A DNA stretch of 64,000 nucleotides from Pezicula radicicola. Taxonomy: Eukaryota; Ascomycota; Leotiomycetes; Helotiales; Dermateaceae. Below the pieces are notes generated by a model, which did not search any database, was not told where the DNA came from, and saw only the letters and a program-made list of their open reading frames with translations. The stretch lies in NCBI GenBank assembly GCA_003008705.1, contig PDUO01000074.1, positions 11,418-75,417 of the forward strand, written 5' to 3'. Shown here piece by piece: positions 1-32,429 of this stretch (positions within the stretch are counted from its first letter, which is position 1; every line of letters starts with the position of its first letter). Position numbers and translations under genes: made by a program.

Positions 1-3000
1 TAAAATTAAATTAACCTAGCCCTAGGTTAGTTAAGTAATAAGAGATAGTTTTATTTATATCTAATTTAAATCCCTCTTATAAAAACTTTCTAGTAATATT
101 AATAATAACTTATTACTATATATTAATATTAATTTATACTCTTATTTATACTATACTCTTCTTTTATATAATCTTTTATATCTTCTTAGATATCTATATC
201 TAGATATATAATTTTCTCTTAGTTAAACCTACTACCTCTACCTCTACTACTTCTACCTCTATTACCTTTATCTCTTTATCCTAATCCTAACTCTACTATC
301 TTAGATTAGTATAATCTCTCTATATAAATATATTTAATTCTTCTACTCTATTAATTATTATTTATATAGTCTTTTAAAATAATAATACTAATTATAAATA
401 ATATATTACTAACTCTTCTACTTCCTAGAGTAAAAACTATTAAATAATCTTAATCTTCTTATTATACTTATACTCTTTATAATATATAATAATAAATAAA
501 ACTATACTCTTATTAATAAATATATTATAAACTCTTCTATTAGAGGTATTTTAATAATAGATATTAATAATCTTAGTAGTTTAGATAACTTATCCTTTAG
601 TTAAATATATTAATATTAATAACTTCTTTTAGAATTTTTTAACTTTTTATTTATATATACTAACTATATTATATCTCTATTAGATCTTCTCTCTCTACTC
701 CTTCTAAATAAACTCTTACTTTAATATAGACTTTTTTATTATATATCTAGTTAATTACTCTCTATCTAGTATTTTAATCTTAAATTAATTTTATATATCT
801 TCTAAAAATAATTATTTAATCTTTTACTTAGTAAGATTATTTATAATATTAGTTTAATTAATCCTAGGTAATAACTAGTCTTAGATATTCTTATACTTAT
901 CTATTTATAATATTAATAAATCCTTAATTAAAACCCTTCTAGTTTAAACTACTAATCTATAAATTATACTATAAACCTACTATATATTAAACTAGATCTA
1001 CTAGTATAAAATAATATTATCTCTTTAACTAATATACCCTTTAGTTAATATATAATACTAGATATATAATTTATATATTTTTAAATTTAATATCTAATTT
1101 ATAAGACTAGATATACCTAGACTAGATATTAATATTATAAATTTCTAATTTATTTATTATATTAATTTTATATAACTCTAACTAGTCTCTTTAGTCTCCT
1201 CCTAGCTTATATCTTCTTATACCTTCTAGATAATACTAGCTTATTAGGTCTAGTATACCTAGAAAATTACTATTAACCTAGTTAACTTAATAATACTAGA
1301 TAAAATAAGTATATAATCTTCTATATTAAACTATCTACCTCTAGGCTAGATTACTAAAACTATTAATCTACTAATAATACTACTCTAGTACTAGTTATTA
1401 TCTAATTTATAATCTAATAATATAATATAAAACTATAATACTTAGTTTTTAACTTCCTTTTAGACTTACTTTTATACTAGCTTATCTCTTTCTCCTTAGT
1501 TAACTACTTTCTTTATTACTATCTTTAATTAATTAAATACTCTTTATTACTTTCTAGTTATCTTAAATATAAACTTCTAGTTCTTAGTTATTCTCTTAGT
1601 CTACTAGATATAACTTAATATCTAGCTCTACTACTATATATAATTCTAAAATATAGTCTTAACTATTTAGTTATTAAATAACTTACTAGTCTTTTAGTTA
1701 TTCTCCTTTTAATTTATTTTAACTAATATAAAATAGTTTATAACTTTAGTTTTAATAGTCTTCTAGACTACTTAGATTATCTATATAAATAAATAATAGA
1801 TAACTTCTAATATAAGATTATCCTTATTATTAATAGATTAAACTAATATTTATATTTTCTTTATATCCTTTTCTTTTAAATATCTAGACCCTTCTAAATA
1901 CTAACTTATAACCCTACTAGAAAAATTACTAATATTAGACTCTATCTTACTATAGTACTTTTAGTACTTTCTATAGACTATTCTTCTTTAGTTATCCTCT
2001 TTTCTAAGGGTTCTTCTATTTATATACTATACTATAATACTCTTATATTCTTTATACTATCTTAGAAATAAATAAATATTCTAATCCTCTACTTAGATTT
2101 ATATTAAATATATACTAGAACTTATTAACTCTAGAGGTTACTAATACTATAATTAATATAGATATATCTAATAGAAATAAGAATAGATACTAACTTAACT
2201 CCTTCTTATTCTAGATTAATTTATTAATTTTATAAATAGATTCTTAGATTTTTTAATATATTTCTTTAATAAAACTATATAAATATTTAAATATAAAATA
2301 GAATTTAATCTAGTTAGATAATATAATAAACTAATACTTCTAGTATACTATAATTTTAAAATTAAATAAATAAACTATAAATTCTATAATAATAATAAAT
2401 ATATTATTAAATCTTTATATATATTCTATTCTTTTTTTTTCTCTCCCCTTCTCTCTTATCCTAGTACTCCTTAATATATTAGGTATATTTTAATATTAAA
2501 CCTTATTTAGATATTTATTCTTATAACTCTAACTATTACTTAAGATTATTTAACCTTAATAATAACTTAGAATATAATAATTCTAATAATAGTAATAGAT
2601 TTAATAGATCTAGTTAGATTATTTATATTCTTATAATACTTTAATAGTACTTCTAATTATAATTTTTCTATAAATCCTATTAGTTTAGTTTTTTAAATCT
2701 TACTAGTCTTATATTATTATTATTATTATTATAATTATATAAGAAATTAAATTCTACTAGCTCTAGTAGAATTTATCTATACTAGTTAGAATTTTTAAAG
2801 TCTCTCTAGTTTATATTCTTAGACTATAAGTATACTCTAGATATTCTAAGAGAGACTAAAGTATAAAGACTATTAAAAACTCTTTAATTTATTTTCTTAT
2901 ATAATCTTTACTTATTACTAGGTCTTTTACTCTCTCTCTTATCTAATAAGAGTATTTAATAATACTTTTTATTATAGTATCTTAATAATTAAAAGTAGTA

Positions 3001-3630
3001 AAGGGAGAAGTCTAGATAAAAATATAAATTATATTCTATTATAATAGAAGAGAAATAAGAGAGGGGTAGAGAGGAGTAGAGAGGTAAAGGAAAGAGGAGA
3101 GTAAAAGATTAATAAAACTTAAAATATAATTTATAATATCTTCTTAACTTTATTTCCTCTTTATATTATCTTATCTTATTATTTATTTAGATTATTATTT
3201 ATTTACTTATTAATACTCTTATTCTTTATATATAGTCTTTAGAAATTATAAGGAATAATAATATAAATTAATTCTTTTATAAACTTTATAACTTTATAAT
3301 TACTCTTTTAAAGTTATATTAGAATTAAAAGCTCTATTACTAGTTATATATATCTTATAATACTATTTAATCTAATTAGTTATATTTAAGAAATTATAAG
3401 AAGAAAATAATAATAAAGTTATTATAATTATTAAAACTTTCTTTAATATTATAAAGTTATATTTTATTAAACTCTAATCTTTTTTATTTATTAATTAATA
3501 AGAAGGCCCTTTATAGTCTTATAACTACCCTTAGGGTTATAAGACTATTACTAATTATATATATTTTATAATAAGATTAAATCTAATTAACTATATCTAT
3601 AAACTATAATAGTATCTCTCTATAATAACT
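1..3630. repeat. AT-rich RIP-mutated block
   Basis: About 3.6 kb of extremely AT-rich sequence with almost no CG dinucleotides, many TA steps and no credible reading frame. This is what RIP leaves behind in old transposons of Pezizomycotina. A purine-rich stretch lies near 3050-3110 and a 12-bp inverted repeat (TAGTCTTATAAC at 3514-3525, its complement at 3536-3547) near the right end. I cannot name the original element. The block stops abruptly within the tandem duplication at 3.6-4.03 kb. Confidence 0.85.
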
Positions 3631-4034
3631 ATATAAGTCAATGAGTTGATTACTAATATCACTAACCTTAGCTCTATATTATTTAGCTATTTAAGAGCTA
3701 CTTTAAATTAAAGTAGGTGGTTATTACTATAGTAGTCGTAGTTGGTGCTATTACTAATCTAAGCAGGAAATCCGGCCTAAATGCAAGCCTGGTCTCGCTT
3801 AGGCCCGCGTCTGCCGGCGTCGGACTCTACAACAGCTGTATGAGTCGACGAGTCGATCGCTAACATCGCTGAGCTTGCCTCTGTATTATTCGGCTATGTA
3901 AGGGCTGCTTAGAATTAAAGCGGGTGGTTGTTGCTGCGCTGGTCGTGGTCGGCGCTGTTGCTGATCTAAGCAGGAAATCCGGGCCGAATGCGAGCCTGGT
4001 CTCGCTTAGGCCCGCGTCTGCCGGCGTCGGACTT
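3620..4034. repeat. 207-bp tandem duplication, one copy RIP-mutated
   Basis: Two head-to-tail copies with a 207-bp offset (roughly 3620-3830 and 3827-4034). The 3' third of both copies is nearly identical (for example AAGCAGGAAATCCGG in each). In the left part copy 1 differs from copy 2 almost only by transitions: CGAGTCGATCGCTAACATCG in copy 2 reads as TGAGTTGATTACTAATATCA in copy 1. The damage fades towards the copy junction. Copy 2 abuts the stop codon of the NLR gene at 4038. Confidence 0.85.
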
Positions 4035-14929: not shown

Positions 14930-16566
14930 AGCCCTAGCGAATTAACACTTTTAACTCTGATGAATTCCAAGTTGCTCTTGACAATACCTACCTTAAGACT
15001 TGCTCGCAAATCGAGTAACTCGTCGACGATACGAATAGTACGTGTAGCTGCAATTGCTAGTCGTTTAAACGTTGCTTGCAGGGAACTATCAACTTGGACT
15101 TGCTTCTCTAGTATCTCTGCTGTAACGGATCGGGTTAAACGACCATCTTCTTCAAGATATATGCAAGCGATTGAAAGGGGTCGGAGAACAAGCATTAGAG
15201 CATGTTCGTAGACTATGGACATTAGCGATTAACTTCATATTGGGTATAGACCTACTTAATTTTATGGAAATAGCTCGCAGGTCTATTCCACTGGTCACTA
15301 GGTCACCTTCTAATGACGCTGGGTTACCAGGAAGATTTCTGCGTCCAAAGTCTTGCATTGCTCGTCCAATCGCCTCATTATGCTGGCCTAGGGCTTGCAT
15401 CGAGCCAAAAGCCCCCGTTCTTAAGTTATGTATTTTGCTGGCTATCTTGACTAGACCGAGTATGACAGAGAAAGAAGCATCGTAACTTGGTGTCTCAATG
15501 CTTATATCCTCAAGGATCAAAGATAGTGAGCGGCCAAGTGCCAAGCATAGTAGACTAATATGAGATTAGCGCCTCCTTTTGCAGTGGCAAATATGTACTC
15601 TACTGTTCTTGTAGAAAAAGACACCAGAGTACCATCCGACTGTTTGGGGATGGCACTAATGATCCGGGTAAATAGACCTCTTGTTTTGTGAATTCCTGTA
15701 GCTTGCGCCAATCTGACGGCGGAACCAAGATGTAGAAGGCTGCATCATAATTTCCCGAGCATGTCTGGAAGTGGGCGTGAAAATATTTGTGAAGTTAGCA
15801 GAGAGCTATATTTGAACAGCTTCTGGGTTTATCTGCTGCTGAAATGGTCTCAAATTATTTTGAGCCGCGTCTATCAAGCGTTGTTCCATTCTTTTTGGCC
15901 GGCGAAGATGGCCCCAACAACCATAACCGCGAGTATTAATGTTTGACTATACGCATCTATTGAAGAGCCATCTTTTGTCTCCAAAAGACGCGATAGCCTG
16001 TGCCTTAAAAAGTCCGGCGGAGGCGATGGAAATATCAAGTACACTGATGAGAGGTACTGTTCCAAGAAGCTTGTTGCTAGTTCCAAAGTGATATCATTAA
16101 ACCCAGCCTTATCGAGGACAGTGGACTCTAAATTAAAGCAAACACCACGATAGTGAAAAGCGTCAAGTCCAGTGTTCCCATTTTGGACGTTATTGATACT
16201 TTCTAGCTGGGGTAATGAGCTCGGTGAAAGGACTCTGTAGATTTGCCGTAGAAATGAGAAGTCTGATGAAAAGCCGTAATACAAATTTAGCATTCGCGAA
16301 GGAATGACATCATTCGATATTTCAATCCCCGAGTAGACGCCCACAGAGACGTTCATCGCATGATCTTTTGGTCTAGGCACAGAGTTTCGAACGGTGCGAC
16401 GATTTGGTCTTTTTTTGCCACGGAAAAGGCAATCTCTGCTGTGCCGACGACAATGTAAACATGGAAGTGCACCATCGCACCCGATTCTTCTAGTCCGGCA
16501 CTCCTCGCATGCGATTTGGGTACGTTTGTAAGCCGATCCAGATAAGTTTGCTAGGGAGTCGTTCAT
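14930..16566 (-). pseudogene. Decayed Zn2Cys6 transcription factor
   Basis: The N-terminus (ATG at 16566) is intact, with a complete binuclear zinc cluster CEECRTRRIGC-DGALPC-LHC-RRHSRDC and a basic linker. The fungal-specific regulatory domain then falls apart. The frame stops at 15874; downstream, GNYDAAFYIL and LGSAVRLAQATGIHK lie in different frames (about 15.74-15.71 kb). Another shift near 15.22 kb separates SIVYEHALMLVLRPLS from its upstream part. No splice sites rescue these breaks, so I read it as a pseudogene that may still make a short DNA-binding fragment. It neighbours the dead sugar transporter, possibly a former regulator/transporter pair. Confidence 0.65.
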
Positions 16567-16697
16567 TATTAGCACTCTTGCACTTTTTCATAGCAATCTT
16601 GGGAAGGAATACAGCCTGTCGCCAGAAGGCGTTTCGTTTCGCATAAGCGGGTAAGGCCGATAGTAGCGGATTAGGTATAGAGGGTAGACTGCAGAAT

Positions 16698-17454: not shown

Positions 17455-19277
17455 CTAAAGCTTGCTAACAATTGGTTTTGTTCCTAGGCTTTCCCAGTCT
17501 ACCCCTTTGCCCCCTTTGCGGAACTGCTTTAGACCGTGCTGAGACTCTGAACCTTCAGTCATCATCTTGTCAAAAACACTTCTGATAACTTTAAATTGTT
17601 GCATTCCGCCAGCATCTGTCCACGCAGCTTTTATCAGCTCTTTAGACAAAGCTGATGCCCGAGGTGCTACAAAACGTAGCTCATCTAGGATATCATCCTC
17701 AGCAACTTGTAGAGCGCCATCACCATCACCAGTAACAACTTTACAAATGGCTCGTAACTTGTAAAGTTCTGATGGGGATACCTCTGTGGCTGTCAACATC
17801 GCATATCGGGCCAAGCTCAAGCCCCATTCCCGAATGATGTACTTCGAGATCACGGCTGGACAAAGGCCGAGCCTGACCTCACTGAGCTTGAAGCTTGCTG
17901 TTGAGCTGACGATCCTCAAATCACATACAAATGCAAGGCCGACTCCTCCTCCGAAGCAGGGTCCATTGACAAGAGCAATGGTGGTCTGAGGACATTGCTC
18001 AATGGCTTCAAATAGACCACGCAAGAGCTCAAACTGTTCGTCAGCTTTGAAAATAGTCTTGAGATCCATTCCAGAGCAGAAGTATTTGCCCTTGGCGCTT
18101 AAGAGTATTCGAAATATAGTTTTATCCATAGCATACTTAGTAAACACTGTAGTAAGCCCTACGATCATTGTTTTCGTCAGGGCATTGCCATTTTTGCTGC
18201 GTGTAAGGCAGACTTTCAGATTTGCTCCACTCTGCTGCACGTTGAATTCTGCCGTTGACTCAACGACTGTCCATTTTCGTCGAGGAGTTGACTTCAAGCG
18301 CCATGCGATTGGTTCTGCTTTAAGTTGTGTACGTCCACCTAACGCAGCTCCAACCCGACTACCATTTGGTTGCTGGAGTTGATCCGATATCCAACTTCCA
18401 GTTGCGACGAGTTTGTCCAGATCAACTCCTGTCGATACGCCCATTCTTTGCATAGTATAAACAATATCTTCAGTTGACAGGTTTCCTTTTGCGCCTTTGG
18501 CAAAAGGGCACCCTCCTAATCCGGCGACACTGCTATCAAATGTTCTGATTCCCATATCGTAACTTTTTACAACATTGGCAATTGCTTGTCCATACGTATC
18601 ATGGAAATGACCGGCAAGTCGGTCTTTTGGGACGAATTTAAATAGCTCATTTAAAAGCGTCTCAACATCGGCAGGGGTACCGACTCCGAGAGTATCTCCC
18701 AAGCTGACTTCATAACAACCAGCATCTAACAAAAATTTGGTGACTTTGACAACCTGATGCGGTTTTGTAGGTCCGTCGTATGGATCAAAGAATATGCATG
18801 ACACGTATCTTGAGGGCGTTAGAACGCTGAACAATGAGCTTCCATATTTTTTGTGAAAACCTACCCTCTTACTTTGATACCCTGAGGTTTGGCGGCCTCC
18901 AAGACTTCCTTAACGCGAATCAACGACTCGTCAACTGTGCAGTTGATATTCTTTTTGCTAAATCCTTCTGTCGCTGATACAAAAACAGCCACCTCTTTGA
19001 CATTGCTCTGAATTGCTAACTTCAATCCTTGGATATTAGGGACAAGTACCGGAAGATGCACGTTAGATCGAGTCTGTGACCCAATACCTGCAAGAACTTG
19101 CGTGGCGTCGGCCAATTGAGGGATCCATCGTGGCGAGACGAAAGAAGTAGCTTCGATCGTATTTAGGCCTGCAGCAGCAAGTTTCTCAATTAATTCAATT
19201 TTCGTATCTGTTGAAAGAATCTGAGATATGTTTTGAAGACCGTCCCGGGGGCCTACTTCCACAATCTTGACCGACAT
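17455..19277 (-). CDS. HMG-CoA lyase / methylglutaconyl-CoA hydratase fusion, PTS1
   Basis: Bifunctional 588-aa protein; exons 19277-18865 and 18808-17455. The N-terminal half is an HMG-CoA lyase TIM barrel: VGPRDGLQN (catalytic Arg11), GHFHDTYGQA (metal-binding His) and GGCPFAKGAKGN (catalytic Cys loop). The C-terminal half is an enoyl-CoA hydratase: FCSGMDLK and VNGPCFGGGVGLA form the oxyanion hole, and SEVRLGLCPAVIS resembles LiuC/AtuE methylglutaconyl- or isohexenylglutaconyl-CoA hydratases. The two domains catalyse consecutive last steps of leucine-type catabolism. No mitochondrial presequence is visible, and the last residues, SKL, form a canonical peroxisomal PTS1. It diverges from the carboxylase alpha gene at 19685 and shares a promoter with an inverted CGGTCCG site. 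Confidence 0.88.
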
Positions 19278-19463
19278 GTCCAAAATTGTTTTTCTGGCTG
19301 CAATGATGGCGAAATGCCAAACATGTTCTAGAAGTGTGGTAATGATATGGTATCCGATCTAGAACAATGATTGATATCCCGCTCATGATTCATGGAGGCC
19401 GTCAGTCTGCTTTGCTCGGCCGCGAGTCAGGGCATTGAAGCCTCGGGTAGCAGCATAGCATCA

Positions 19464-19480
19464 CGGTCCGCTACGGACCG
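19464..19480. promoter_or_regulatory. Inverted CGGTCCG operator candidate (3-bp spacer)
   Basis: CGGTCCG-CTA-CGGACCG, a perfect 7-bp inverted repeat with a 3-bp spacer. It lies in the 407-bp gap between the lyase/hydratase fusion and the carboxylase alpha gene. Inverted CGG triplets are the standard target of Zn2Cys6 dimers, and one such regulator is encoded in the cluster. Confidence 0.65.
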
Positions 19481-19684
19481 GTGGGAACGAAGCGAAACTA
19501 CACCCCGGCTCACTCATATGCGAGGTACCAGAGGCAAGCAATGCGTCTACTCGTACCCCACAATATAGATCATAGGAAAGTATCATGTCAAATACTCTTG
19601 AGATTGTCGCTGCTACAGTTCTATTTTAGATAATTGAAGAGCGCAGTTACAACCAAGGCGAAGAAACCTTCGTATTCTGTCATA

Positions 19685-22185
19685 ATGTCTCCTATATCTA
19701 TCACCACAAATAGTCAGTTAGCGAGCCAAATACCGCAGCAGTATCCAGAGCGCAGCGTTCAAAAACTGCCAGAAAAGCTATTTGATCAGTTAAACGATTC
19801 TAATGGACAGCCTGTAATCAAGAGAGTGCTGATTGCCAATCGTGGCGAGATAGCATGCAGAGTCATTGCGACATGCCGGAAGCTCAACATTGCCTCTATT
19901 GCTGTTTACACTGAACCGTGAGCTCGACAGCTTTCCAGCCCTATTCCACTTCATCCCAGTCATTATGCTGATTGATTTATAGTGATGCCCTGTCACGGCA
20001 TGTGAAGGAAGCAGATCAAGCTGTTCTAATCGGCTCAATCGATGGGCGAGATGGAAATCCACATCAAAATATTGAATTATTAATTCAGACAGCACTTCAC
20101 TACAAGGCTGACGCCATTCATCCCGGATATGGGTACTTGAGCGAGAATCCTAGGTTTTCTAGGAGCGTCAAAGAGGCAGGAATTTTATTTCTCGGCCCAT
20201 CAGCAGATAGTATGGCGGTTTTAGGCGATAAACGCCTAGCCAAAGAGTATCTCACAAAGCACGCACCCCAAGTACCACTGATTCCAGGCTACAATGGCTC
20301 CGATCAAAGCATTGAACGATTGCTGATAGAAGCAGACCGGATCAAATTTCCTATCCTCATCAAAGCATCGGCAGGCGGGGGTGGAAAGGGGATGAGGATC
20401 GTCCAGCATAGAGACCACCTCGAAGCCGAGTTAACGAGAGCTCAATCGGAAGCCCAAAGATCATTTGGCTCGTCCGACTGCATCCTAGAACGCTATATCG
20501 AAAGAAGTAAGCATATTGAGATACAGATTTTCGGTGATCAGCACGACATTGTAGTATCCTTATTAGACCGGGAATGTTCTATTCAACGGCGACATCAAAA
20601 GGTCATCGAAGAGGCTCCATCTCCATGGTTATCTGAAGACCTTCGCAGAAAGATAAGCGCAACCGCGATCTCAATTGGACAGCTTCTAGGCTATGAAAGT
20701 GCAGGGACTGTCGAATTCATCGTCGACGTGGAGACGGCAGAGTTCTTTTTCCTCGAAGTTAATACACGTATCCAGGTTGAGCACCCCATCACCGAAGAGA
20801 CAACTGGTCTGGATATTGTAGCGCTGCAAATATATGTCGCTAGCGGCGGCAAACTTGATGACTTGAATTACTTTGAGAATGGAAGAGCCCCTCAAGTTGG
20901 GTATGCGATCGAATGCCGACTTTGTGCTGAGGACCCTTCACGGGACTTCTTGCCTGACCTGGGCGTTATTCGACGCTGGACTCCAGCGACAGCAATTCTC
21001 CCTCCTATGAAAACACAACATGTCAGATTTGAGACAGGGATAGAGACTGGTTCTGAGGTATCTATATATTTTGATTCTTTGATCGCCAAGATTGTGGTCT
21101 GGGCACCGACAAGAGCTCAAGCTATAGCGAAGATGGTTCTGATGATCGCCAATACGGTGTGTATCGGAATCAGAAGCAACCAGGCTTTCCTTCAGTCCTG
21201 CTTAGTGCATCCTAATTTCCACGATCCTACCTACTCCACCAGCTTCATACCAGATCTGTTACCCACTCTGCTCCAGAATCCGTATGTTGCTGATGTACCT
21301 GGCTTCTTATGTCGACTTTCTTTCGCCCCTTCACTACTTCGGCGACAATCCATCCGATCCCAGCAGAGATTGAGTGGAAAGCGACAGGCCTTTTCATCCA
21401 TTAGGCCCGGATACAGTAACCAAAAGGCCGACATTGCAAATGTCACCGCAGATATCGTTCAAATTCGGGGCCCGTATAGCCAAACCTTCCTCGTCGAATG
21501 GCCATCCACAGCGCTTGATCAGACCACTCAGGAGGTCAAGATTGTTCCCTTGGCACAGGCAACAGATGCGACAGTTGCATCTACAGCACGTCCAACTGAG
21601 AAGCAGACACAACTGGGCGCACAGTTAGCCCGGAGCTACAACGTCATCAGCACCCAGATTCGCAGACTGAAGTATTCGCCTAGCAGCAACGCCTCACCAA
21701 GTAGAGTATCTCTCCAGGTTGTGAAACATCATTCTTTCTCCTCAGCAGACCACGCACATTGGGATCTCAGCGACATCAGCTTGACCATTGACCTGGAGCG
21801 ACAGCCTATTTACACAGCTGTTTCGGGCACTATGACTGGTAACGACGCTGGAGATTATCAGAAGGCCTATGTGCATGTTCCCGCGCTGGGAACTTACATT
21901 GAATTCCGACTCTTCTCGCTGCTGAATTATGGCGAGAGCTTGCGCGTCGGCACCGAGGCACCAGTGGCTGCAAGTGACAAGCATGCAAAGGCACCCATGC
22001 CTTGTAGGGTCTTGGAAGTGAGCAAGAAGGATGGGGAACGCATTGAAGCTGGTCAGGTAGGCATGATTGTTGAGAGCATGAAGATGGAGATGAAGGTTTT
22101 GGCTACCGTGGCGGGGATATTCACGGGACGTTTCAGTAAAGGGGATGCGGTCGAGGAAGGGTCAGTTTTGTTTAGCGTGACATAG
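19685..22185 (+). CDS. Biotin-dependent acyl-CoA carboxylase alpha subunit (MCC/GCC-like)
   Basis: 811-aa protein; exons 19685-19917 and 19983-22185. Order: biotin carboxylase N-domain ([16 protein letters not shown]), ATP-grasp ([14 protein letters not shown] glycine-rich loop; [29 protein letters not shown]), BC C-domain, linker, then a biotinyl domain with [10 protein letters not shown]. Lys778 is the biotin site, 33 residues from the end as is typical. It carboxylates the gamma-methyl carbon of a 3-methylcrotonyl-CoA-like substrate together with the beta subunit at 27799-29924. The N-terminal extension (about 45 aa) is not a convincing mitochondrial presequence. The C-terminus (SVT) is not a PTS1, so peroxisomal import would need piggy-backing. 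I choose ATG 19685, the first in-frame ATG. Length exceeds typical fungal MCC alpha (about 710 aa) because of the linker before the biotin domain. Confidence 0.88.
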
Positions 22186-22337
22186 GTAGCAGTGAGGAAT
22201 AACGTACAAATGTGTTTATTTCGACAAATGTTCTTCTCTTCTAGTTATTCTCACTAGTTGATTGTGATTGACTCAAATATGTACAGGTGCATCGGTGAAT
22301 ATCCCTACTCAACTCCACCCATTAAAAGTTTTCACGC

Positions 22338-24794
22338 TCAAGCCCCAAAGTTCATGCTTGTGTCATAGAATATACTAGAGAACGGTGATGTTCCAGGCGG
22401 CATCAAGTCACTGTGAGCAGTGCTTTCATCATGGATTTGGTCGGCTGATTCTTGCCTTTGACCATCGACAGAAGTCAAAGCCGCTAACTCGTTCATATTC
22501 GCATTGAAGACTGTATCCCAATTTGGTGATTTTCCAAGGCTTGTCCGCGCAGCCCCTTTCGGCTCCTGTGACATAGTTGTATAATCTACTGCGGCCCAAA
22601 GATCGACTAATTCTTCGGAATCAAGTAGCTCAAATCTTGGCGAGGTTGTGCAAGTCGTCGGAATCAGAGATTGGTGTAGAGCAAGCTTGTCAATTATTGA
22701 CAGCTAGTACCATTAACATCGAATTAAACCATCTAGGATATGAAGCCCACATACCATATGCTTCCCAATCTTCCACACAAGAGCGTACTGCTCGAGGAAA
22801 GCTCTCTCAGTATGCAGACATTGTCTTGCTTGCTGCTGACGCTCGATATTCGGGTCGTTTACATACATGGTGTGTATGCTGGCACAAACCGTCGTGCAGT
22901 ACCCGAAATATGAGTAAAATACCGGACAGCCTAGAGCCTCCGTATCCTTAAGAAGCTTGGCCATCAAATAAGCATTCTCTCTTCCGCTCTCCAGGGCTCG
23001 ACTGAGAAAGCTGGCTGGAGGCTTCATATCCGTCGATTTAGACTGCTGATAGAGTAAAAATGGATGATTAATAAGACAATGTGACGTGTAAAACAAAGCA
23101 TAGGAAAATATGATCGGCCCAGCGACCTGCATGTCATAGCCAGCCCCATTTGAGCACTTCGCAGCCATAAGAGCGTCTTCAATACTGTTGCCAATTTCAA
23201 ATTGAGTTTCGAGCTGTAACAGTGTTGAATTGATCTTGGCAAAGTCGGATTTGGAGTCCCATGGTGGGAGACCATCTTCCCCCCGACCCTGATCGTGGAT
23301 CATATGCTGAGCGCACTTTCCAATTATGGAAGCAGTAAGAACGACGAAAGAAGAATGACTTTGACGTCCGTCGTGGCTATCGACTGAAGAGAAGGCCTGT
23401 TTTAGCGTTTGCACCCTTTGACCATCACTGTTTCGAGAATCGACTTCACGACCTGGCAGCTGGACGTCACATTGCGCGTCAGGAATCGCAGCTGGTCGTG
23501 CTTTTCCACAGGAGCATAGCTTATCCAGAACGTAGATAGACCAAAAGACTTTCCGCCGCTCCTCTTGGTCGATAATACTAAGCTCGCTACTAGGTTCCAG
23601 CATGAGCCCAAGGTCCTGAGCCACTCTGATTGCAAGGCCAATCTTCATCCAGCCTGGGTGTCGTTTTCCACCTAGACGTGAAATGTTGAGCCTGCAGACT
23701 CGACATATTGTCGCTAAGGTTCAAACTGGGTTATGATATGACGTACCTGTAAAGTCAATAATAGAGAGAAGTGTGACTGTCTGACAGACCTGGAGATTGG
23801 GATCGCGTTCAGCAGCGAACCACACATTTACTATGTGGTTCCATGAGCAGCTCGCATAAACCATGGTTGCTTCCTGTTGCTGGTGGTTAAAGTAAGGATG
23901 CTTTGCGAAGCGTAGGGAAGAAGCTAATATAGCGAAAGTCAGGTAATCAGGAATTGAGCCATCTGCGTATCTCTGTCGAAAGTCCTGCTCGTGGAAGAAA
24001 GAGTATGGCTGGTTGTGTACACTGGAGAAGTACACATCGATCAGAGCCAAAGTCACTTCTGCTGGTGGCAGTTTGTCAAAAGAACTACATCTATGAGCTT
24101 GCTGTGGTGTAGGAGGGGCGGTCTTTCCATACGTTTCCTGATTCTGCGCTGCTTGATACTGATCTTGCTGGTTGATGTCTTGACCAACATAGGTCGTTGA
24201 AGGATCTTCAAATGTACTTGTGGCCCAAGGTAAGACCAACGGCGAACTTGCTAGATTCCGAAGCAATGGGAGAAAACTACAAGCCATATTAGCTAACAGC
24301 ACTCTTGAACGTGCCTTGGACAAACATGTCATTGCTACGGCGTACCTATGTATCGTGGTTACTAGTTGGTCAATCTTACCCTCAAGTGCTACAATCCTGT
24401 GGGCCAATTGGTCCTGGTTACAGGTATCAGTAAGTGCGTGCTGGTTGATAGTTTCCGAGGGACGAGAGACTCACGTAGGGTATTCCACCTTGTTGCTCAT
24501 CAGGGACCGAAGGTGAAGGGAAGTTTTGACCGCTTTCCTGGTCGTCTTTGGGTCGCGTGGCATCACCATCGCCATATTTGCAAACCTGCGACAAACGGCG
24601 GCAGTTTCTGCAAATTGGTCGCTCCCCCGAGCACTTGGCTTTCTTTCGCCTGTCGTCGCCGATGAGTATGGTATGGTGTATGCAAGGAGATGCAATAGAT
24701 TTGGTGGGAATTATTCTGACCTGCAGTTCTGGCAAGCCCGTGCTATGCGCCTGATAGGGCGGTATTCACTGGGAGGAGGGGATTGCAAAGACAT
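22338..24794 (-). CDS. Zn2Cys6 transcription factor of the catabolic cluster
   Basis: 709-aa regulator in six exons: 24794-24721, 24649-24475, 24413-24346, 24276-23747, 23671-22755, 22703-22338. The first intron splits the zinc cluster; after splicing it reads CQNCRRKKAKC-SGERPIC-RNC-RRLSQVC, a perfect C-x2-C-x6-C-x6-C-x2-C-x6-C. A coiled-coil-like dimerisation segment follows (DQLAHRIVALEGKIDQLVTT), then the fungal-specific domain (about residues 180-560, including KIGLAIRVAQDLGLMLE and RRKVFWSIYVLDKL). Its position amid five enzymes, and paired CGG sites in each divergent promoter, make it the probable pathway-specific regulator. The first donor (GTCAGA) is unusual, so that boundary is less certain. 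Confidence 0.82.
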
Positions 24795-25493
24795 GATGTG
24801 ATATGAGGGCCACAGTTTCAAATTAAGTTAATAATAATGACGTAGAGATAAGGACAGCAGACTCTGTTGTAATTCTGAAAGGGGACTGTTATTAACAAGA
24901 GATTGCACCTGGGCCTTTACCTCTTTGAGCGTTGTTGAGGATGTGGGGTACGTACTCCAGATTATTCCGCTCAGGGGATCCAGGGGGGAAGAGACGTAAA
25001 CAGGGATGTTATGGTATGGGGTTATGGGGCAAGGCCAGGTTGGGAGAACGCGTCAGATTGTGGGATGGTAAGCTGTGGGATGTATTGCGTTGTGTGTGGT
25101 GTCGTGAAGTTAGGGTTAGCTGTAAGCACTCTGACTTCTGGCTAATATCACGTGGACTAATTAATTTGCAGGCCAAATCATCACATGACCAATAGGATTC
25201 TTCGGTCCGGTCGTACGGACCGTACCTCTTTGATTGGCTGATTGGTATTCCATCCATCTCCAGGATACAGTTATGTCGTGCATTTACTTGGGCCGAGGCG
25301 GGATATGATGGATCCTGGACGGCAAGCAATGCGATGGGCTCCGTACGTAACTCTAGTTCGTCGTGATACTTTAAAATCAGTGGTTAATTGTGCCTGGATG
25401 AGAAAGAGTTGGGAATATTTGCTCTTATTATTCCATCTAGTATCCAATCTAACTTAAACCTTCGACCGTGAGCAGACCCAATAATTGACAGCC
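24795..25493. promoter_or_regulatory. Divergent promoter, regulator / acyl-CoA dehydrogenase
   Basis: 699 bp with no gene. It contains the inverted pair CGGTCCG-GTCGTA-CGGACCG at 25203-25222 (6-bp spacer), about 270 bp upstream of the dehydrogenase ATG, and G-rich phrases on the left. Presence of the site upstream of the regulator itself suggests autoregulation. Confidence 0.55.
25203..25222. promoter_or_regulatory. Inverted CGGTCCG operator candidate (6-bp spacer)
   Basis: CGGTCCG and CGGACCG separated by GTCGTA. Same half-sites as at 19464 but with a different spacing. Confidence 0.6.
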
Positions 25494-27066
25494 ATGTCGA
25501 ACTTGCATCATGACGCCCTGATTCCATTTGGAGAACCAACTTGGTATTCTCGAAAATCATCTCCTTATTATAACGCATCGCACGAAAGACTTCGAACCGC
25601 GGTGCGGGCTTACGTCGAAGAAAAGATCATTCCAAACTGTGCCGAATGGGAAGCTGCAGGATATGTACCCAAGGAGGTTTGGGTCCCTTCTCTGACTTGT
25701 TTTACGATGAATGAATGAATATAATACTAATCAATCATTTCATGGGTAACCAGGTGCTTCAAGATTATTCTGCCCGAGGATACACGGCAGTTGCGTTGAA
25801 TCCTGCTGCCATCGCTGACTATCTTCATACGGTCGCGTTGCCCGGCGACATTCGCCCTCAGGAATGGGATGGTTTCCATGATCTTATCTGTATCGACGAA
25901 ATTGCACGCTGTGGCTACCTAGGAGTGATCTGGGCCCTTGGCTGTGGCGATTCAATTGGGTGTCCACCAGTCGTGAACTTTGGATCCGACGAACAGAAGC
26001 AACGATTCCTGCCATCTGTGATCCGTGGACAAAATCGGTTCTGTCTGGGGGTTACCGAACCTGACGGTATGTTAACATCCTGAGTTGTGGCTAAGAGTGC
26101 ATGGCTGATATTTGCAGCTGGCTCGGATGTTGCAGGCCTTCTCACTACTGCTGTGCGGAGAGGGGATGTGTACGTTGTTAACGGAGCCAAGAAATGGATC
26201 ACTAATGGCATGTGGGCAACTCATTGTACCGCTGCTGTGCGGACAGGTGGTCCTGGAAAAGGCGGAATTTCTGCCCTTGTGATACCTCTCACCTTGAAGG
26301 GTATAACCCGCAGGAAAATATTGAATTCGGGAGTCTCTGCTAGTGGTAAAGTTCTTCTTCCGAGCAGAGCTTGGATGTGCTGCTGATAAAGGTTCAACAG
26401 GCTCGACATATTTAGAATTCGATGACGTCGAGGTACCAGTGTCCAATCTTCTTGGTAAAGAGAACGAAGGGTTCAAAATCATCATGTCAAGTGTGTCCCG
26501 TTCCTTGCACAAATACCTTCCAGCTACAAAAGACATACTGACCTTCTCCAGACTTCAATCACGAGCGCTTATGGCTCGCTTGCACAAGTTTGAGAATGGC
26601 ACGCGAATGTATGAAAGACGCGTACAGGCACTCCCTTACTAGGAAGACGTTCGGTAAAAACCTCATTGACCATCAAGCAATACGCACAAAGTTCTCCGCA
26701 ATCGCCCTAAAGATCACCCCTACGTATGCGTTTATGGAGTCTCTTGTGGCAATGGCGAATGATACTGCATCCAAAAATAAGAAAATTTCCGCTGGAGATA
26801 GAACAGAAGAGCTACGTTATGGAGGTCTCATTGCATTGCTGAAGGTGTCTGCCGGCCGGGCCCTGGAGGAGACAGTCAGGGAGGCTCAACAGGTGATGGG
26901 CGGAATGGGTTACTCACGTACAGGTAAAGGTGCCAGAATTGAGCAGATCAGTCGTGATGTCCGGGTTATGGTAGTTGGCGGGGGAAGCGAGGAGATTCTC
27001 AACGACTTGGCATTCAAACAGGAACGTAGGGATCTCGCGGCGATCGGACGTGAAAGTAAACTGTAA
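25494..27066 (+). CDS. Acyl-CoA dehydrogenase (isovaleryl-type), PTS1
   Basis: 445-aa FAD enzyme in five exons: 25494-25676, 25754-26066, 26118-26345, 26392-26490, 26552-27066. Family signatures: FCLGVTEPDAGSDVAG, KKWITNG, and QVMGGMGYSRTGKGARIEQ near the C-terminus. The usual YEGT catalytic Glu is replaced by VGGGSEEI, while a Glu sits in NHERL (Glu279). This matches isovaleryl-CoA dehydrogenase, where the base comes from that helix, although other fungal dehydrogenases share FNHER. It would oxidise the branched acyl-CoA to the 2-enoyl-CoA carboxylated by the alpha/beta pair. It ends in SKL, a canonical PTS1, with no mitochondrial presequence. The first intron donor (GTTTGG) is weak. Confidence 0.87.
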
Positions 27067-27798
27067 ATTTAAACTGAGAGACGAATCAAATTATGCATGA
27101 ATCTTGGCTTCTACTCGTTGGCGACCACATGATGTTTTCCCGACTATTTCCTTCAATTAATTTTTCTTTTATTTAGCCGAGGGGTTAGTTCTAGCAATGC
27201 GATCAAAACAATAATAACACAACAAGGCTTAATCCTAAAAGTAATCTAAAAATTATACCTTACTCCTTATATTAACTAGTATTTAATTCTTATTTCTTAA
27301 TTATTTATTATTATATTGTAAGCATTATATATTACAAAGGAAAAGTAAAGCGAAATGTAGTTATAGTAGCAAGTACTATGCCGACGAGTTTATCAAGTCG
27401 CTTAATTCATAAATCGGTTGTAAATTTAGTAAAACACAGATTAGCCTTATTAAATTTAGTAGACAGCCTATAACTATATGGCTTACAGAGGCCTAATTAA
27501 CTCGTCGGCACAGTACCGTTTTATTTACTAAGCGAGAGGTAGGAACATAATAATTTACAACAGCTTCTTAATCATATAACTTAATAATAATAACTCAGAA
27601 CATTGGCGGCAAAATATGTCGTCGTTTTGAGTTCATTCATGGCTGACTGCCCATATCGTGTGCGAGATTTAACAATCACACACAAAAACGATTCAATACA
27701 GACTGAAGCTGACATCAACAGTGTTTTCGAAGACGGAGGTTTTACTTGAGGAGAAGCACTGCTCTGAATGAGCTTTTCAAAGCATTACTATTCGTACA
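27067..27798. other. Convergent intergenic region with AT-rich insert
   Basis: 732 bp between the 3' ends of the dehydrogenase and the carboxylase beta gene. AT-rich at 27200-27340, then the small inverted-repeat element at 27372-27517. No gene seen. Confidence 0.6.
27372..27517. mobile_element. 146-bp MITE-like element
   Basis: Ends are inverted repeats of about 21 bp: AGTACTATGCCGACGAGTTT on the left and, reverse-complemented, GGTACTGTGCCGACGAGTTA on the right. Non-coding AT-rich core. It sits in the convergent 3' gap, where it would disturb neither gene. Confidence 0.65.
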
Positions 27799-29924
27799 TT
27801 ATATCCTAGCAAGACCCCTGAAACCTATATTTCCCTTAATAGGACTAAGAGTTACAACCTCCAAACACATCCCCAGTACATCCCTTGTATCCCTAGGATC
27901 TATCACTCCATCATCTATCAGATGAGCTGAAGTGCGATAGCTTTCAGAGTCTCTGTGAACAGATGCACTGAAACTATCTATACGGCTCCTCAGTTTGTCC
28001 TCCTCGACTTCTTTTCCAGCGCGTGTGGCCGAATCGCGAGCGATCGTTTCCATAACCCCTCCCAGCTGCTCAGGTCCCATAACAGAGCAACGACTTGTAG
28101 GCCAGGCAAATAGAAATCGCGGTGCATATGCTCTTCCGCACATGGCATAGTTACCTGCACCGTATGATGCACCACACAGGATGCTGATATGCGGTACGGT
28201 GCTGGTGCTCACGGCACTCACAAGCTGGGCTCCTTTCTTAATGAGTCCCGCTCGCTCGGTCTTGACACCGACCATGAAACCGGTGACATTATGCATAAAA
28301 ACGATGGGATTGCGCCTTGATGATTAGGAAGTTAGCGGCTTTATAGTCCATTGCGGTAGGGTTTGTGGGACGGAGTTGCATACCCTTGGTTACAAAGTCT
28401 GATAAAGTTAGTGGCTTTGTCGGATTCATTTGGAAGAATGACCGAATGTTGATTCGCAATTATCCCAGTCAATCGACCTGTACAAGTTTCAGTATTTTGT
28501 GCGGATATGCTGGGCTCTGAACTTTTCACCATGAATATGTGCCCACGCGGTAATAATGCCAGGCCCAAATTGTGGCTTGAATTGTTCGATCCTGGAGTCA
28601 TCTACAATCCTCAGCAGGACCTCTTTCATATCCAGTGGCATCCGAATATCTGGGTTGATAATGCCAAGTAAATCTTGCACATTATATCTAGGTTCAAAGA
28701 CATCGTTTATGTGATTTGTTACCGCTAAGTGTTGAGAAGTAGCAGTGGTAGTCAAGATCCATTCCCTTGCCTTTCTTATTGCGTCGAGTCTATGGAAATT
28801 CAGCATTTTGCAAGTAATACCGATAACCCTCGATAGACTTACTCATCTATGGCCAGCTGATCTGACAGCCCAGTTACTGTTGAATGCATATCTGCACCTC
28901 CAAGGTCTTCCGCTTTTGTAATTTCGCCTGTGGCCATTTTCACCAGCGGAGGTCCGCCCAAGAAGACTTGAGCCTGATCCTTTACAAAGATTGTATAGTC
29001 AGAGAGTGCAGGGTGATATGCTCCTCCTGCAGTCGAGGATCCAAAGACAACAGCACAACTATGCATTCCATTTTTGGTTCGAATTGCGAGGTCTCGAAAG
29101 ATCTGGCCTCCTTTGTGAAAAACTCGGAACTGTTGGGGAAGGAAGACACCGGCCTAGTCAAACAACCAAGTCAGCATACTTCTGCTGTGTATTTATAGGG
29201 CAGAATTCCCGGACCGACTGCACCAAAGCTATTAAAGGGAGATTATTTTCAGATGCTATCGCTGTTATTCGATTCTGTTTCAAAACTTTACTAATGGTTA
29301 GAATGACTCGAATAGGGGTATGGAAATAGACTTACCAGTGAACTCGTTCCAAGCCCCGCCTTGCAAAGAAGGGATATGCGCAAGTATCATACAAATTATG
29401 CCACTAGGTTAGTCAAAGTCAGCCTCATGATACTTCTTTTTATTGTCCATGTGGGAAAAAGAAAGGGAAGCTAGCATCAATTGACAAGACACATATCGGA
29501 CTATGGTAACCCTTCACATACCTGACGACTCCGATTCCAGCAACCAAGGACGCCGAGGGAGACGATTCTTCAAGCTGATATCCCGCAAATGAGCACAGTT
29601 CCAAGAAAGGAGTTCCGTTGTCCCTCAATAGAGCTACTCTATCGCGCGCTTCCATAAAGTTAGATTTGCAATCCATTATTTTGAAGCTGGGAACCTACCT
29701 AGTAGGTGCCGCGCAGTGTGTTTCTCCAATGCGCCCGGCGATTTGCTTTCTGAGCAAACGGCCTGAGATGCAGCATCATGCTCGGCCATGATTTTCTTCC
29801 ATTTCAAATTATTTGCTTGAAAGTCTGGACTTTTCGAGTCCAAGTTGCTTGCTACTGGCGGGAAGGAGGACGGAATTGCTTCCCGTGACAATTGTGGAGT
29901 CTCATTGAAATCGTTTGGCAACAT
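27799..29924 (-). CDS. Acyl-CoA carboxylase beta (carboxyltransferase) subunit, ends in ARI
   Basis: 557-aa protein in eight exons: 29924-29699, 29648-29522, 29403-29336, 29285-29215, 29153-28843, 28789-28530, 28477-28384, 28315-27799. Carboxyltransferase halves are clear: N-terminal [41 protein letters not shown] and [17 protein letters not shown]-terminal [33 protein letters not shown] and [21 protein letters not shown]. These match methylcrotonyl/geranyl-CoA carboxylase beta subunits rather than acetyl- or propionyl-CoA carboxylases. No mitochondrial presequence is visible. The C-terminus GLARI ends in ARI, a permissive but non-canonical PTS1. The donor after exon 4 (GTCCGG) is atypical; the reading frame supports it. 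Divergent from the acyl-CoA synthetase gene. Confidence 0.85.
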
Positions 29925-30488
29925 ACTGCCCGATTGAAGATTTAGATAGGATTTGGTAATTACAGTGGAACATTCATAACCACTGATGATAGGGACACAG
30001 TCATTATCATACTTGGCCCATCAATATCCAATTCTCACCTTCCCGAGCTTCTCGGCTATACAGTAGTTTGAAAGTGGTTGCCGTGGGAGGTGGTTTTCTA
30101 AACCCGTCACGGTCCGTGTCCGGCATGGCCGGAACACCGTCCGGCTTCTCACATTCAACCTCACGGTAACTTTTGGAGGAGATCTGACGGACATTTGCCA
30201 CAACTTGATATGCACTAGCTACCAATATGAGTTCGCTGATACTTCTCATAATATTTGTGATGTCGAATCGATCCTCGACATCATTGCGATTTCGGTTTTA
30301 CAAGGGCAGTATCCTGGTTCGAAAGCTAAATCATCTTGTTGGAAACCTCACATATCTAGCCTTACTCAGTCTTGACATAAGGTACGTGTATATATGTCTA
30401 GTTGATTACAGTCCTCCATTACCAACATCTATCCCTAGTAACTAAGAAAACTCAGTTGAATATTCCCGTGACCAGTAGAAGTACAGTC
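29925..30488. promoter_or_regulatory. Divergent promoter, carboxylase beta / acyl-CoA synthetase, CGG-rich
   Basis: 564 bp without a gene. A compact cluster at 30110-30143 contains CGGTCCG (30110-30116), the palindrome TCCGGC-ATG-GCCGGA (30119-30133) and CCGTCCGG. This is the third divergent promoter of the cluster to carry the CGGTCCG half-site; here the second perfect half-site is missing but CCGG-type sites flank it. Confidence 0.55.
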
Positions 30489-32429
30489 ATGTTACCTCTC
30501 ACTTCTAAAATGTCATATCTTGATGGGCCAACAGACCAACCATTATGGAATATAACGCTCAGTCAGCTTCTCCAACAGCAAGCAAAACATGCTCCATCCA
30601 GACAGTGTCTTGTGTTTTCTGAAGCCAACTGCCGCGTTAATTATATGGACTTTTATCTTCGGACCTTAAGAGTTGCGAAAGCACTTATGTCCGCAAAAAT
30701 AGCTCATGGAGATCATATTGGAATCATGGCGGGAAATTGTCTTCCTTACGTGGAACTGTTGTTTGCTGCCTCCCATGTCGGTGCAGTGTTGGTGGTCTTC
30801 AACAACACTTATACAGCCACAGAGCTCAAGTCTGCATTGAAGCATTCTGGTACGTGTCATACCTTGCATCAAGCCTAAGACTAACAAAAGGCATTAGAGT
30901 GTAAAATTATTTTTACTGTACCATCCATAGGGAAAATCTCCAACTCGGCGATTCTAGATTCGCTCTGCACGGAACTTCACAGCGCAAACTTGCCCAAGCT
31001 TGAAAGAGTCGTTATACTAGAACCTGAACATTCACAACGATTCATACACTATGACGCTTTTTCTGCGTCAGGTGGACAGATTTCTAACGGTCAATTGAAT
31101 GCACGATTAAAAACAGTCCGAACTAGTGATGTTTGCAATCTTCAATTTACCAGTGGCACAACTGGAAGTCCGAAAGCTGCTATGTTAACACATAAGTACT
31201 CATAGCTTTGTTTTAGTGTCTGACAAATCACTGAACATAAAATAGGAATATCATCAACAACGGCCGCTTCATTGGTGATCGAATGCGCCTCTGCCAGGAC
31301 GACATAATCTGCTGTCCTCCGCCGCTTTTTCACTGCTTTGGTCTTGTCCTTGGGTTATTAGCAGTTTTCACACATGGTGCCAGTATTGTATTTCCGAGTG
31401 AATCTTTCAATCCCGCAGCAGTGTTACAAGCGGTCTCAAATGAACGTTGCACAGGATTGCACGGCGTTCCGGCAATGTTCTCCGCAGAATTGGAATGCAT
31501 CAAGGAGAACGTAGACTTTCCACACTTAAGAACTGGTATAGCAGCCGGAGCACCGGTTCCGAGAAAGCTAATGAAGGATATTCGTGAAATTTTGCATATG
31601 AATGAGATAACGAATACATACGGTGAGTAGTCCCTGAAGGCTCCCTTGTCAATGAACTCATGAGAAACAGGAATGACTGAAACCTCACCTGCAACCTTTA
31701 TGACTTTTACCGATGACCCAATAGAGAAGCGGCTTTCTACAGTAGGAAAAATACTACCCCATACAAAAGCCAAGATCATCGACCAAAATGGTCTAATAGT
31801 ACCGATTGGATCGAGAGGCGAGCTCTGTGTTGCTGGATACTCTCTTCAGAAGGGTTACTGGAAGAACCCAGCCAAGACGGCAGAAGTGATGAGAACTGAC
31901 GAAGAGGGCATTCTGTGGATGCACACTGGTGACGAGGCGATCTTCGACGAGCAAGGATACTGCAGTATTACTGGTCGCATTAAGGATATCATCATTAGAG
32001 GTAATGTCCTTTTATATTTATCTGCGTTTCTTAGGTCGTCTCTGACAGAAACACTATCCTGACATTGAGGCTTCGACTGCAGGTGGTGAGAATATCTATC
32101 CCCTCGAGATCGAGGAGCGTCTTATGCAACATCCAGCAATTGTTCAAGCAAGTGTAGTTGGTATCTCGTCTACCAAGTACGGTGAAAATGTTGCTGCTTT
32201 CTTGCAACATCGATCCAGGTATGAAAAGCCATCGCTGCCAGTCCTACGCTCTTTCGTACAGGAGACTTTGGCGTGGCATAAAGCACCTGTCCATATATGG
32301 TGGCTTGACGAGAACGAAGACTTCCCGAAGACAGGGAGTGGAAAGATCATGAAACACGTTTTGCGAGATAGGGGCGAGAGAATGCGGAAGATTGCTGAGC
32401 GTGGAGCACCAGCAGTTTCAAGATTGTAA
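30489..32429 (+). CDS. Acyl-CoA synthetase (AMP-binding), PTS1
   Basis: 570-aa adenylate-forming ligase in five exons: 30489-30849, 30898-31195, 31246-31622, 31671-32000, 32083-32429. Motifs: [19 protein letters not shown] (nucleotide-binding loop, about 215-233), [35 protein letters not shown] hinge region, [14 protein letters not shown], and [16 protein letters not shown] with the catalytic C-terminal Lys. It activates a carboxylic acid to its CoA ester with ATP, most likely the entry step for the cluster's branched substrate. It ends in SRL, a canonical PTS1. The substrate is not fixed by sequence; isovaleric or a longer 3-methyl acid is inferred from the neighbours. Confidence 0.87.

Follow-up and report, generated by a model that had tools for sequence, protein, structure and literature searches.

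Organization of the locus

The window analysed here, a 64,000-base stretch of the Pezicula radicicola genome (C123:11418-75417 in a 61.0-Mb genome assembly of 152 contigs), carries at positions 17455-32429 five intact enzyme genes and one regulator gene. The six genes form three divergent pairs (fusion/alpha, regulator/dehydrogenase and beta/ligase), in which the fusion joins a 3-hydroxy-3-methylglutaryl-CoA (HMG-CoA) lyase to an enoyl-CoA hydratase, and alpha and beta are the two subunits of an acyl-CoA carboxylase. Introns were placed manually at GT-AG boundaries, guided by motifs of homologues, and the resulting gene models are predictions; no internal stop is present in any of the five spliced enzyme models. 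The Pfam scan covered ten reading frames of the window.

The fusion gene lies on the reverse strand at 17455-19277 (exons 18865-19277 and 17455-18808; Pfam HMGL-like and ECH_1) and encodes 588 residues, beginning with MSVKIVEVGPRDG and ending in SKL at 17455, with the lyase in residues 1 to about 305 and the enoyl-CoA hydratase in residues from about 325 to 588. Opposite to it, the alpha gene on the forward strand at 19685-22185 (exons 19685-19917 and 19983-22185; Pfam Biotin_carb_N, CPSase_L_D2, Biotin_carb_C and Biotin_lipoyl) encodes 811 residues that combine a biotin carboxylase with a biotin carrier bearing the motif ESMKMEM, and its C-terminus, SVT, is free of a type 1 peroxisomal targeting signal (PTS1). 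The acyl-CoA dehydrogenase (forward strand, 25494-27066; exons 25494-25676, 25754-26066, 26118-26345, 26401-26490 and 26552-27066; Pfam Acyl-CoA_dh_1) has 442 residues and ends in SKL. The carboxyltransferase subunit beta (reverse strand, 27799-29924; eight exons; Pfam Carboxyl_trans) has 557 residues and ends in ARI, and the AMP-forming acyl-CoA ligase (forward strand, 30489-32429; exons 30489-30849, 30898-31195, 31246-31622, 31671-32000 and 32083-32429; Pfam AMP-binding and AMP-binding_C) has 570 residues and ends in SRL. In the middle of the cluster, on the reverse strand at 22338-24765, reading frames of a fungal transcription factor gene contain a Fungal_trans domain (Pfam PF04082) within 22716-23720 and Zn2Cys6-like cysteines in 24427-24765, the latter recognised by eye without a profile scan.

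An initial annotation of this DNA had described a complete leucine-type degradation pathway with peroxisomal signals. All the reaction types of the five enzymes are indeed encoded, but the hydratase and lyase activities reside in a single fused protein. The four tagged C-termini it had listed (SRL, SKL, SKL and ARI) are reproduced by the spliced models, with alpha as the fifth, untagged enzyme.

Targeting signals and a separate mitochondrial-type set

The strict PTS1 form [SAC][KRH][LM] is found at the ends of the fusion, the dehydrogenase and the ligase, and neither ARI of beta nor SVT of alpha conforms to it. The composition of 240 homologues implies a probability of 0.0023-0.0027 for a strict end, which gives p ~1-2e-7 for at least three such ends among five proteins. 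Over their first 40 residues the five cluster enzymes carry net charges of -1, -1, +2, -3 and +1. Elsewhere in the genome, neighbouring genes for isovaleryl-CoA dehydrogenase (IVD) and for the beta and alpha subunits of 3-methylcrotonyl-CoA carboxylase (MCC; MCCB and MCCA) at C67:152499-157877, and a stand-alone HMG-CoA lyase on contig C131, all have basic N-termini, the charges for MCCB, MCCA, IVD and the lyase being +6, +4, +6 and +5. Since separate IVD, MCC alpha, MCC beta and lyase genes are present, the cluster is a second set. Both the existence of such mitochondrial-type genes, which the initial annotation had left to be looked for, and its view that the cluster enzymes lack a mitochondrial presequence are thereby upheld, the latter as judged by charge (-3 to +2 versus +4 to +6). 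An ivdA/mccB/mccA cluster has reportedly been studied in Aspergillus nidulans.

In order to place the fusion among its relatives, a quick tree was built from the window protein and the 117 rows of suitable length among its 120 listed homologues. The window fusion belongs to a clade (support 100) of 42 rows; C-termini there are strict PTS1 in 22 rows, broadly PTS1-like in 17 and neither in 3, and N-terminal extensions are 8-26 residues long in all 40 rows that could be measured. Among the 76 rows outside this clade, 38 end in AKL and most have longer N-terminal extensions. Among the 120 listed homologues, 27 of the 60 fusions with a presequence-like extension of at least 25 residues also end in AKL, so a mitochondrial location is compatible with a PTS1-like end, and many other fungal fusions may be dual-targeted to mitochondria and peroxisomes. 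The window-type fusion itself looks peroxisomal from these features.

The ending of beta has a different background. Its 120 best listed homologues end in ARI (61), ARM (33), ARL (20), SRM (1), SRL (1), ARF (1) or otherwise (3), and 12 bacterial beta rows that lack the MCC pocket residue Phe191, discussed below, end in VARF, VARL, VARM or VARP, with FRM as the commonest ending of full-length bacterial MCC beta rows. The fungal ending is therefore an inherited position that has perhaps been exapted.

These data bear on the possibility that the genes are ordinary leucine-pathway duplicates whose C-terminal tripeptides are coincidental and whose products are mitochondrial or cytosolic. Descent from VAR-F/L/M/P could explain ARI, ARM and ARL in beta, alpha is untagged, and AKL occurs on fusions with long N-terminal extensions; nevertheless, the chance probability given above, the 39 of 42 PTS1-like ends and 40 of 40 short N-termini in the fusion clade, and the basic N-termini of the paralogues in the same genome make coincidence most improbable. 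Peroxisomal targeting signals on the fusion, the dehydrogenase and the ligase are well supported by their sequences, and the proposal of peroxisomal instead of mitochondrial signals is borne out for at least three enzymes.

The substrate pocket of the carboxylase

Excerpts of Jurado et al. 2015 (PMC4673880) locate Phe191 of MCC at the site that geranyl-CoA would fill with its second isoprene unit, a position held by Gly162 in geranyl-CoA carboxylase (GCC), and describe a three-residue insertion in MCC that, together with Phe191, shrinks the pocket. In the same excerpts the G162F mutant of GCC lost its activity on geranyl-CoA and wild-type GCC acted very weakly, with a very high Km, on 3-methylcrotonyl-CoA, whereas the F191G mutant of MCC gained appreciable activity on geranyl-CoA and was essentially inactive on 3-methylcrotonyl-CoA (PMC4673880).

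The window beta has Gly179 at this position and aligns without gaps to GCC beta in the pocket region; the three extra residues, seen in all five MCC-type chains aligned, are absent from it. Thus the window beta lacks both hallmarks of MCC beta, Phe191 and the insertion, and has those of GCC beta. In a MAFFT alignment of the 120 listed fungal homologues the Phe191 column contains Gly in 109, Ala in 8, Thr in 3 and Phe in none, and the gap opposite the MCC insertion is found in 120 of 120, but these rows are the best matches to the window beta and the column therefore describes its clade and not all fungal carboxylases. The mitochondrial-type MCCB of the same genome, 42% identical to the window beta, retains PDREHFGR at the pocket position. 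Taken together, the residues predict a carboxylase pocket of the GCC type, enlarged relative to that of MCC.

An unrooted quick tree of 72 beta rows, in which the Phe191 column was kept, included 27 of the 30 bacterial loci L143-L172, the other three having no usable frame. The rows form three groups by residue, 30 with Phe (support 99), 12 bacterial without Phe (97) and 30 fungal (100), so that fungal betas, those of the type of AtuC from the Pseudomonas Atu cluster, and MCC betas are three separate groups. The window beta lies in the fungal group, outside the MCC beta branch that includes the MCCs of known structure.

A third clade of its own would fit a peroxisomal route for some other 3-methyl acyl-CoA, such as anhydromevalonyl-CoA derived from siderophores, a long chain resembling phytanate, or a secondary metabolite specific to the cluster, and the enlarged pocket says only that the substrate is bulkier. 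Anhydromevalonyl-CoA is made by peroxisomal siderophore enzymes. The ligase, whose top NCBIfam match is PRK12583 with 584 bits, under the cut-off of 832, is of a generic fatty-acid type and would suit such a substrate as well. Genes for siderophores, polyketides or phytanate were not recognised by eye in the longer frames around the cluster, a weak negative made without a hidden Markov model (HMM) scan, and we consider a substrate of this kind unlikely but conceivable.

Comparison with the Atu and leucine pathways

The cluster was compared with Atu and Liu reference proteins of P. aeruginosa PA7. The dehydrogenase scores 171 bits against AtuD and 140 bits against LiuA; its top PDB matches, with 187 and 174 bits, are not IVDs, and IVD itself (1ivh) scores 102 bits, so the enzyme is not closest to IVD. 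Alpha scores 399 bits against AtuF and 372 bits against LiuD, and the hydratase domain 106 bits against AtuE and 90 bits against LiuC. AtuE as the top crotonase match in the PDB (92 bits) had been considered as decisive for the Atu route and was set aside in view of the small margin that the comparison with LiuC leaves; because of this margin, and of a SEVRLGL motif that is by eye nearer LiuC, the hydratase is taken as weak support.

The Pseudomonas Atu cluster (atuABCDEFGH, with the liuE lyase) thus resembles the fungal one in its ligase, dehydrogenase, two-subunit carboxylase without Phe191, hydratase and lyase of the LiuE/HMG-CoA lyase family, and as gene types these are all present in the window, with alpha, dehydrogenase and hydratase scoring higher against the Atu than against the Liu proteins. 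Unlike the Atu cluster, the fungal cluster is eukaryotic, three of its enzymes are tagged for peroxisomes, hydratase and lyase are fused, the lyase is inside the cluster and beta forms its own clade. Equivalents of AtuA and AtuB/AtuG (citronellol/citronellal dehydrogenase) were not recognised by eye in the open reading frame lists, the flanking frames having had no HMM scan. The mitochondrial leucine route (IVD, MCC, AUH and HMGCL) shares the order of reaction types and the enzyme superfamilies, and in this genome its IVD, MCCB and MCCA genes are likewise neighbours, but basic N-termini in these paralogues, and Phe191 in MCCB, set them apart from the cluster enzymes, which have neither. Several database records carry the name HMG-CoA lyase/methylglutaconyl-CoA hydratase for fungal fusions of the same two domains; in contrast to the fusions outside its clade, those of the window clade have short N-termini and mostly SKL, PKL or AKL ends.

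Like the hydratase motif, some further observations weigh against an Atu-like peroxisomal pathway. For the window beta, the score with LiuB slightly exceeds that with AtuC; the structure comparison does not separate GCC from MCC for this protein and leans slightly to MCC; and the ARI of beta sits where bacterial GCC-type betas have VAR-F/L/M/P and is therefore not counted as an independent tag. The LiuB scores and the lean of the fold comparison, along with a lyase domain 52.6% identical to LiuE and a full set of the needed activities, would suit a peroxisomal isovalerate or leucine pathway, in which isovaleryl-CoA and 3-methylcrotonyl-CoA are the substrates of these five enzymes and the mitochondrial route is duplicated for exogenous isovalerate. 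However, Phe191 and the MCC insertion are absent from all the listed fungal betas, MCC carrying Gly at this position had essentially no activity on 3-methylcrotonyl-CoA in the excerpted data (PMC4673880), the dehydrogenase is unlike IVD, and the genome has its separate mitochondrial-type IVD, MCC and lyase, which together render this pathway quite unlikely.

With a dehydrogenase nearer AtuD than LiuA and far from IVD, and a GCC-type pocket, isovaleryl-CoA and 3-methylcrotonyl-CoA are not supported as dedicated substrates, and the label 'leucine-type' is probably wrong. The substrate is probably a 3-methyl-branched acyl-CoA larger than 3-methylcrotonyl-CoA. The other suggestion of the initial annotation, geranyl-CoA-like acids as in bacterial Atu clusters, fits better than the leucine route and falls short of proof.

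Promoter repeats

Each of the three divergent promoters contains the sequence CGGTCCG. A perfect inverted repeat, CGGTCCG-CTA-CGGACCG, lies between the fusion and alpha genes at 19464-19480, a second one, CGGTCCG-GTCGTA-CGGACCG, between the regulator and dehydrogenase genes at 25203-25222, and a single CGGTCCG site followed by CGG repeats between the beta and ligase genes at 30110-30134. CGGTCCG/CGGACCG occurs 6 times in the window, against a shuffle mean of 2.38 with 3 of 100 shuffles reaching 6; five of the six sites are in the three divergent promoters, which make up 1,699 of the 64,000 bases, and the sixth is at 29210 inside the beta gene. The two paired arrangements had no counterpart in 100 shuffles. 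As the motif was first spotted by eye, these window statistics are post hoc and the genome-wide count is the fairer test: the 61-Mb genome contains CGGTCCG-N(2-7)-CGGACCG twice, each time in a divergent promoter of the cluster, and the reversed control pattern once. Versions with one mismatch are at background (four and two places versus six and three for controls), and the looser CGGTCCG-N(0-20)-TCCGG was uninformative, with 26 matches versus 106 for its control. The restriction of the exact repeat to these two promoters supports the earlier claim of co-regulation, and the cluster is probably co-regulated.

Proposed pathway

The observations made here concern the order and intactness of the genes, the C-termini, the residues of the pocket, the repeats in the promoters and the mitochondrial-type paralogues; from them we infer a reaction order, a substrate, a mode of import and a mode of regulation. 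The ligase with its SRL end would form the acyl-CoA, the SKL dehydrogenase would introduce a 2,3 double bond, and the alpha/beta biotin carboxylase, with its enlarged GCC-type pocket, would carboxylate the 3-methyl group; the SKL fusion would then hydrate and cleave the carboxylated product, by which the methyl branch that blocks beta-oxidation would be removed. Untagged alpha would be imported by piggyback on beta, and the regulator encoded in the cluster would act at the divergent promoters via CGGTCCG-N(3-6)-CGGACCG. On balance, the cluster is likely to encode a peroxisomal, co-regulated set of catabolic enzymes that handles 3-methyl-branched acids of greater bulk than isovalerate, with citronellate/geranate-type isoprenoid acids as the best candidates.

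The cluster is real and intact, and is a variant of the Atu/Liu kind. If the proposed pathway is true, it would provide a genetic basis for the use of acyclic isoprenoid acids by fungi and place biotin-dependent carboxylation in peroxisomes, for which import of a biotinylated, assembled enzyme would presumably be needed; one residue and one promoter motif would also allow the 120 listed records, many of which are named methylcrotonoyl-CoA carboxylase, to be tested again. Clusters for limonene are said to occur in Grosmannia clavigera. According to the excerpted text of a 2014 review, growth of a fungus with monoterpenes as its only carbon source long went undescribed; the review then names Grosmannia clavigera (PMC4097962). 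A fungal peroxisomal carboxylase cluster of similar type was not found among the papers listed in the literature searches, a weak negative, nor in the portions seen of PMC4673880, PMC13343957, PMC7188761, PMC4097962, PMC3199775 and PMC4847356.

Relatives in other fungi

The closest listed homologue of beta is a Phialocephala record with 82% identity (Phialocephala subalpina is a helotialean leotiomycete), and the window fusion is 49-67% identical to the full-length fusions among its 120 listed homologues. When the two listings were matched by hand, fusion and beta lay on contigs of equal length, and so apparently on one contig, in 14 sources of a partial tally: Halenospora, Coniosporium, Lachnellula arida, L. 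subtilissima, Hyphodiscus, Stipitochalara, Leptodontidium, two Cadophora, Bisporella, Thozetella, one Penicillium and two further ones. The locus tags of the two genes differ by 2-3 in Coniosporium (W97_02363/02365), Cadophora M221 (IFR05_009216/009219) and Penicillium IBT 16267x (N7486_000709/000711). The two genes are on different contigs in Aureobasidium subglaciale and Fonsecaea pedrosoi CBS 271.37, and also in Cladophialophora psammophila and Cercospora zeae-maydis; in the latter two species the fusion listed may be of the other type. In one Macrophomina record (P0186) the annotation joins beta to a Zn-cluster domain, which would be expected if a regulator gene lies next to it.

The cluster thus appears from these records to have relatives in many ascomycetes. 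Of the six-gene neighbourhood to which the initial annotation had drawn attention, the tally covers fusion and beta only, and for these two genes the arrangement appears to extend beyond this genome. It is possible, though we hold it only tentatively, that filamentous ascomycetes widely carry a GCC-type enzyme and a complete peroxisomal Atu-like pathway, with a fused hydratase-lyase, in which a single polypeptide would hydrate and cleave the carboxylated intermediate, and a dedicated regulator, for growth on acyclic terpenoid acids.

Related loci and neighbouring features

Partial or related copies were seen elsewhere in the genome. At C152:56001-66000 (L053) there is a decayed-looking partial copy of the cluster with a ligase start, beta, a Zn2Cys6-like frame (by eye) and the fusion, in which beta residues 386-480 are unmatched and frames contain in-frame stops. 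A fusion-type gene with several in-frame stops lies beside a degraded-looking acyl-CoA dehydrogenase at C151:38001-46000 (L056). At C141:60501-81000 (L141, L142) the neighbours of a fusion with a longer, presequence-like N-terminus include acyl-CoA dehydrogenases, of which one ends in AKL, and a frame recognised by eye as a CaiB-type CoA-transferase; this is possibly another branched-acid cluster. The examined stretches around these three copies contain no CGGTCCG-type site. A divergently transcribed biotin carboxylase/carboxyltransferase pair at C87:1057563-1061135 (L003) is an unassigned fungal acyl-CoA carboxylase unlike MCC, and C1:1304197-1306801, considered as another alpha/lyase pair, was rejected as its frames read by eye as pyruvate carboxylase.

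Among the bacterial loci, the 14-kb Atu-type locus L173 (G036:C1:556501-570500) has matches 54%, 51% and 67% identical to AtuC, AtuF and AtuD, a partial ligase, an AraC-like regulator and a glutathione-transferase-like frame; AtuE, LiuC, LiuE and the window fusion are all unmatched in it. It houses beta row L160, which lacks Phe191 and ends in VARP, and its second dehydrogenase is 36% identical to that of the window over 415 residues (248 bits), above AtuD and LiuA.

Within the window, a second Zn2Cys6 regulator frame (Pfam Zn_clus) lies just outside the cluster at 15874-16587, and positions 1-4000 are strongly AT-rich, with a GC content of 0.205 versus 0.42-0.48 in the remaining 4-kb blocks, possibly representing mutated repeats.

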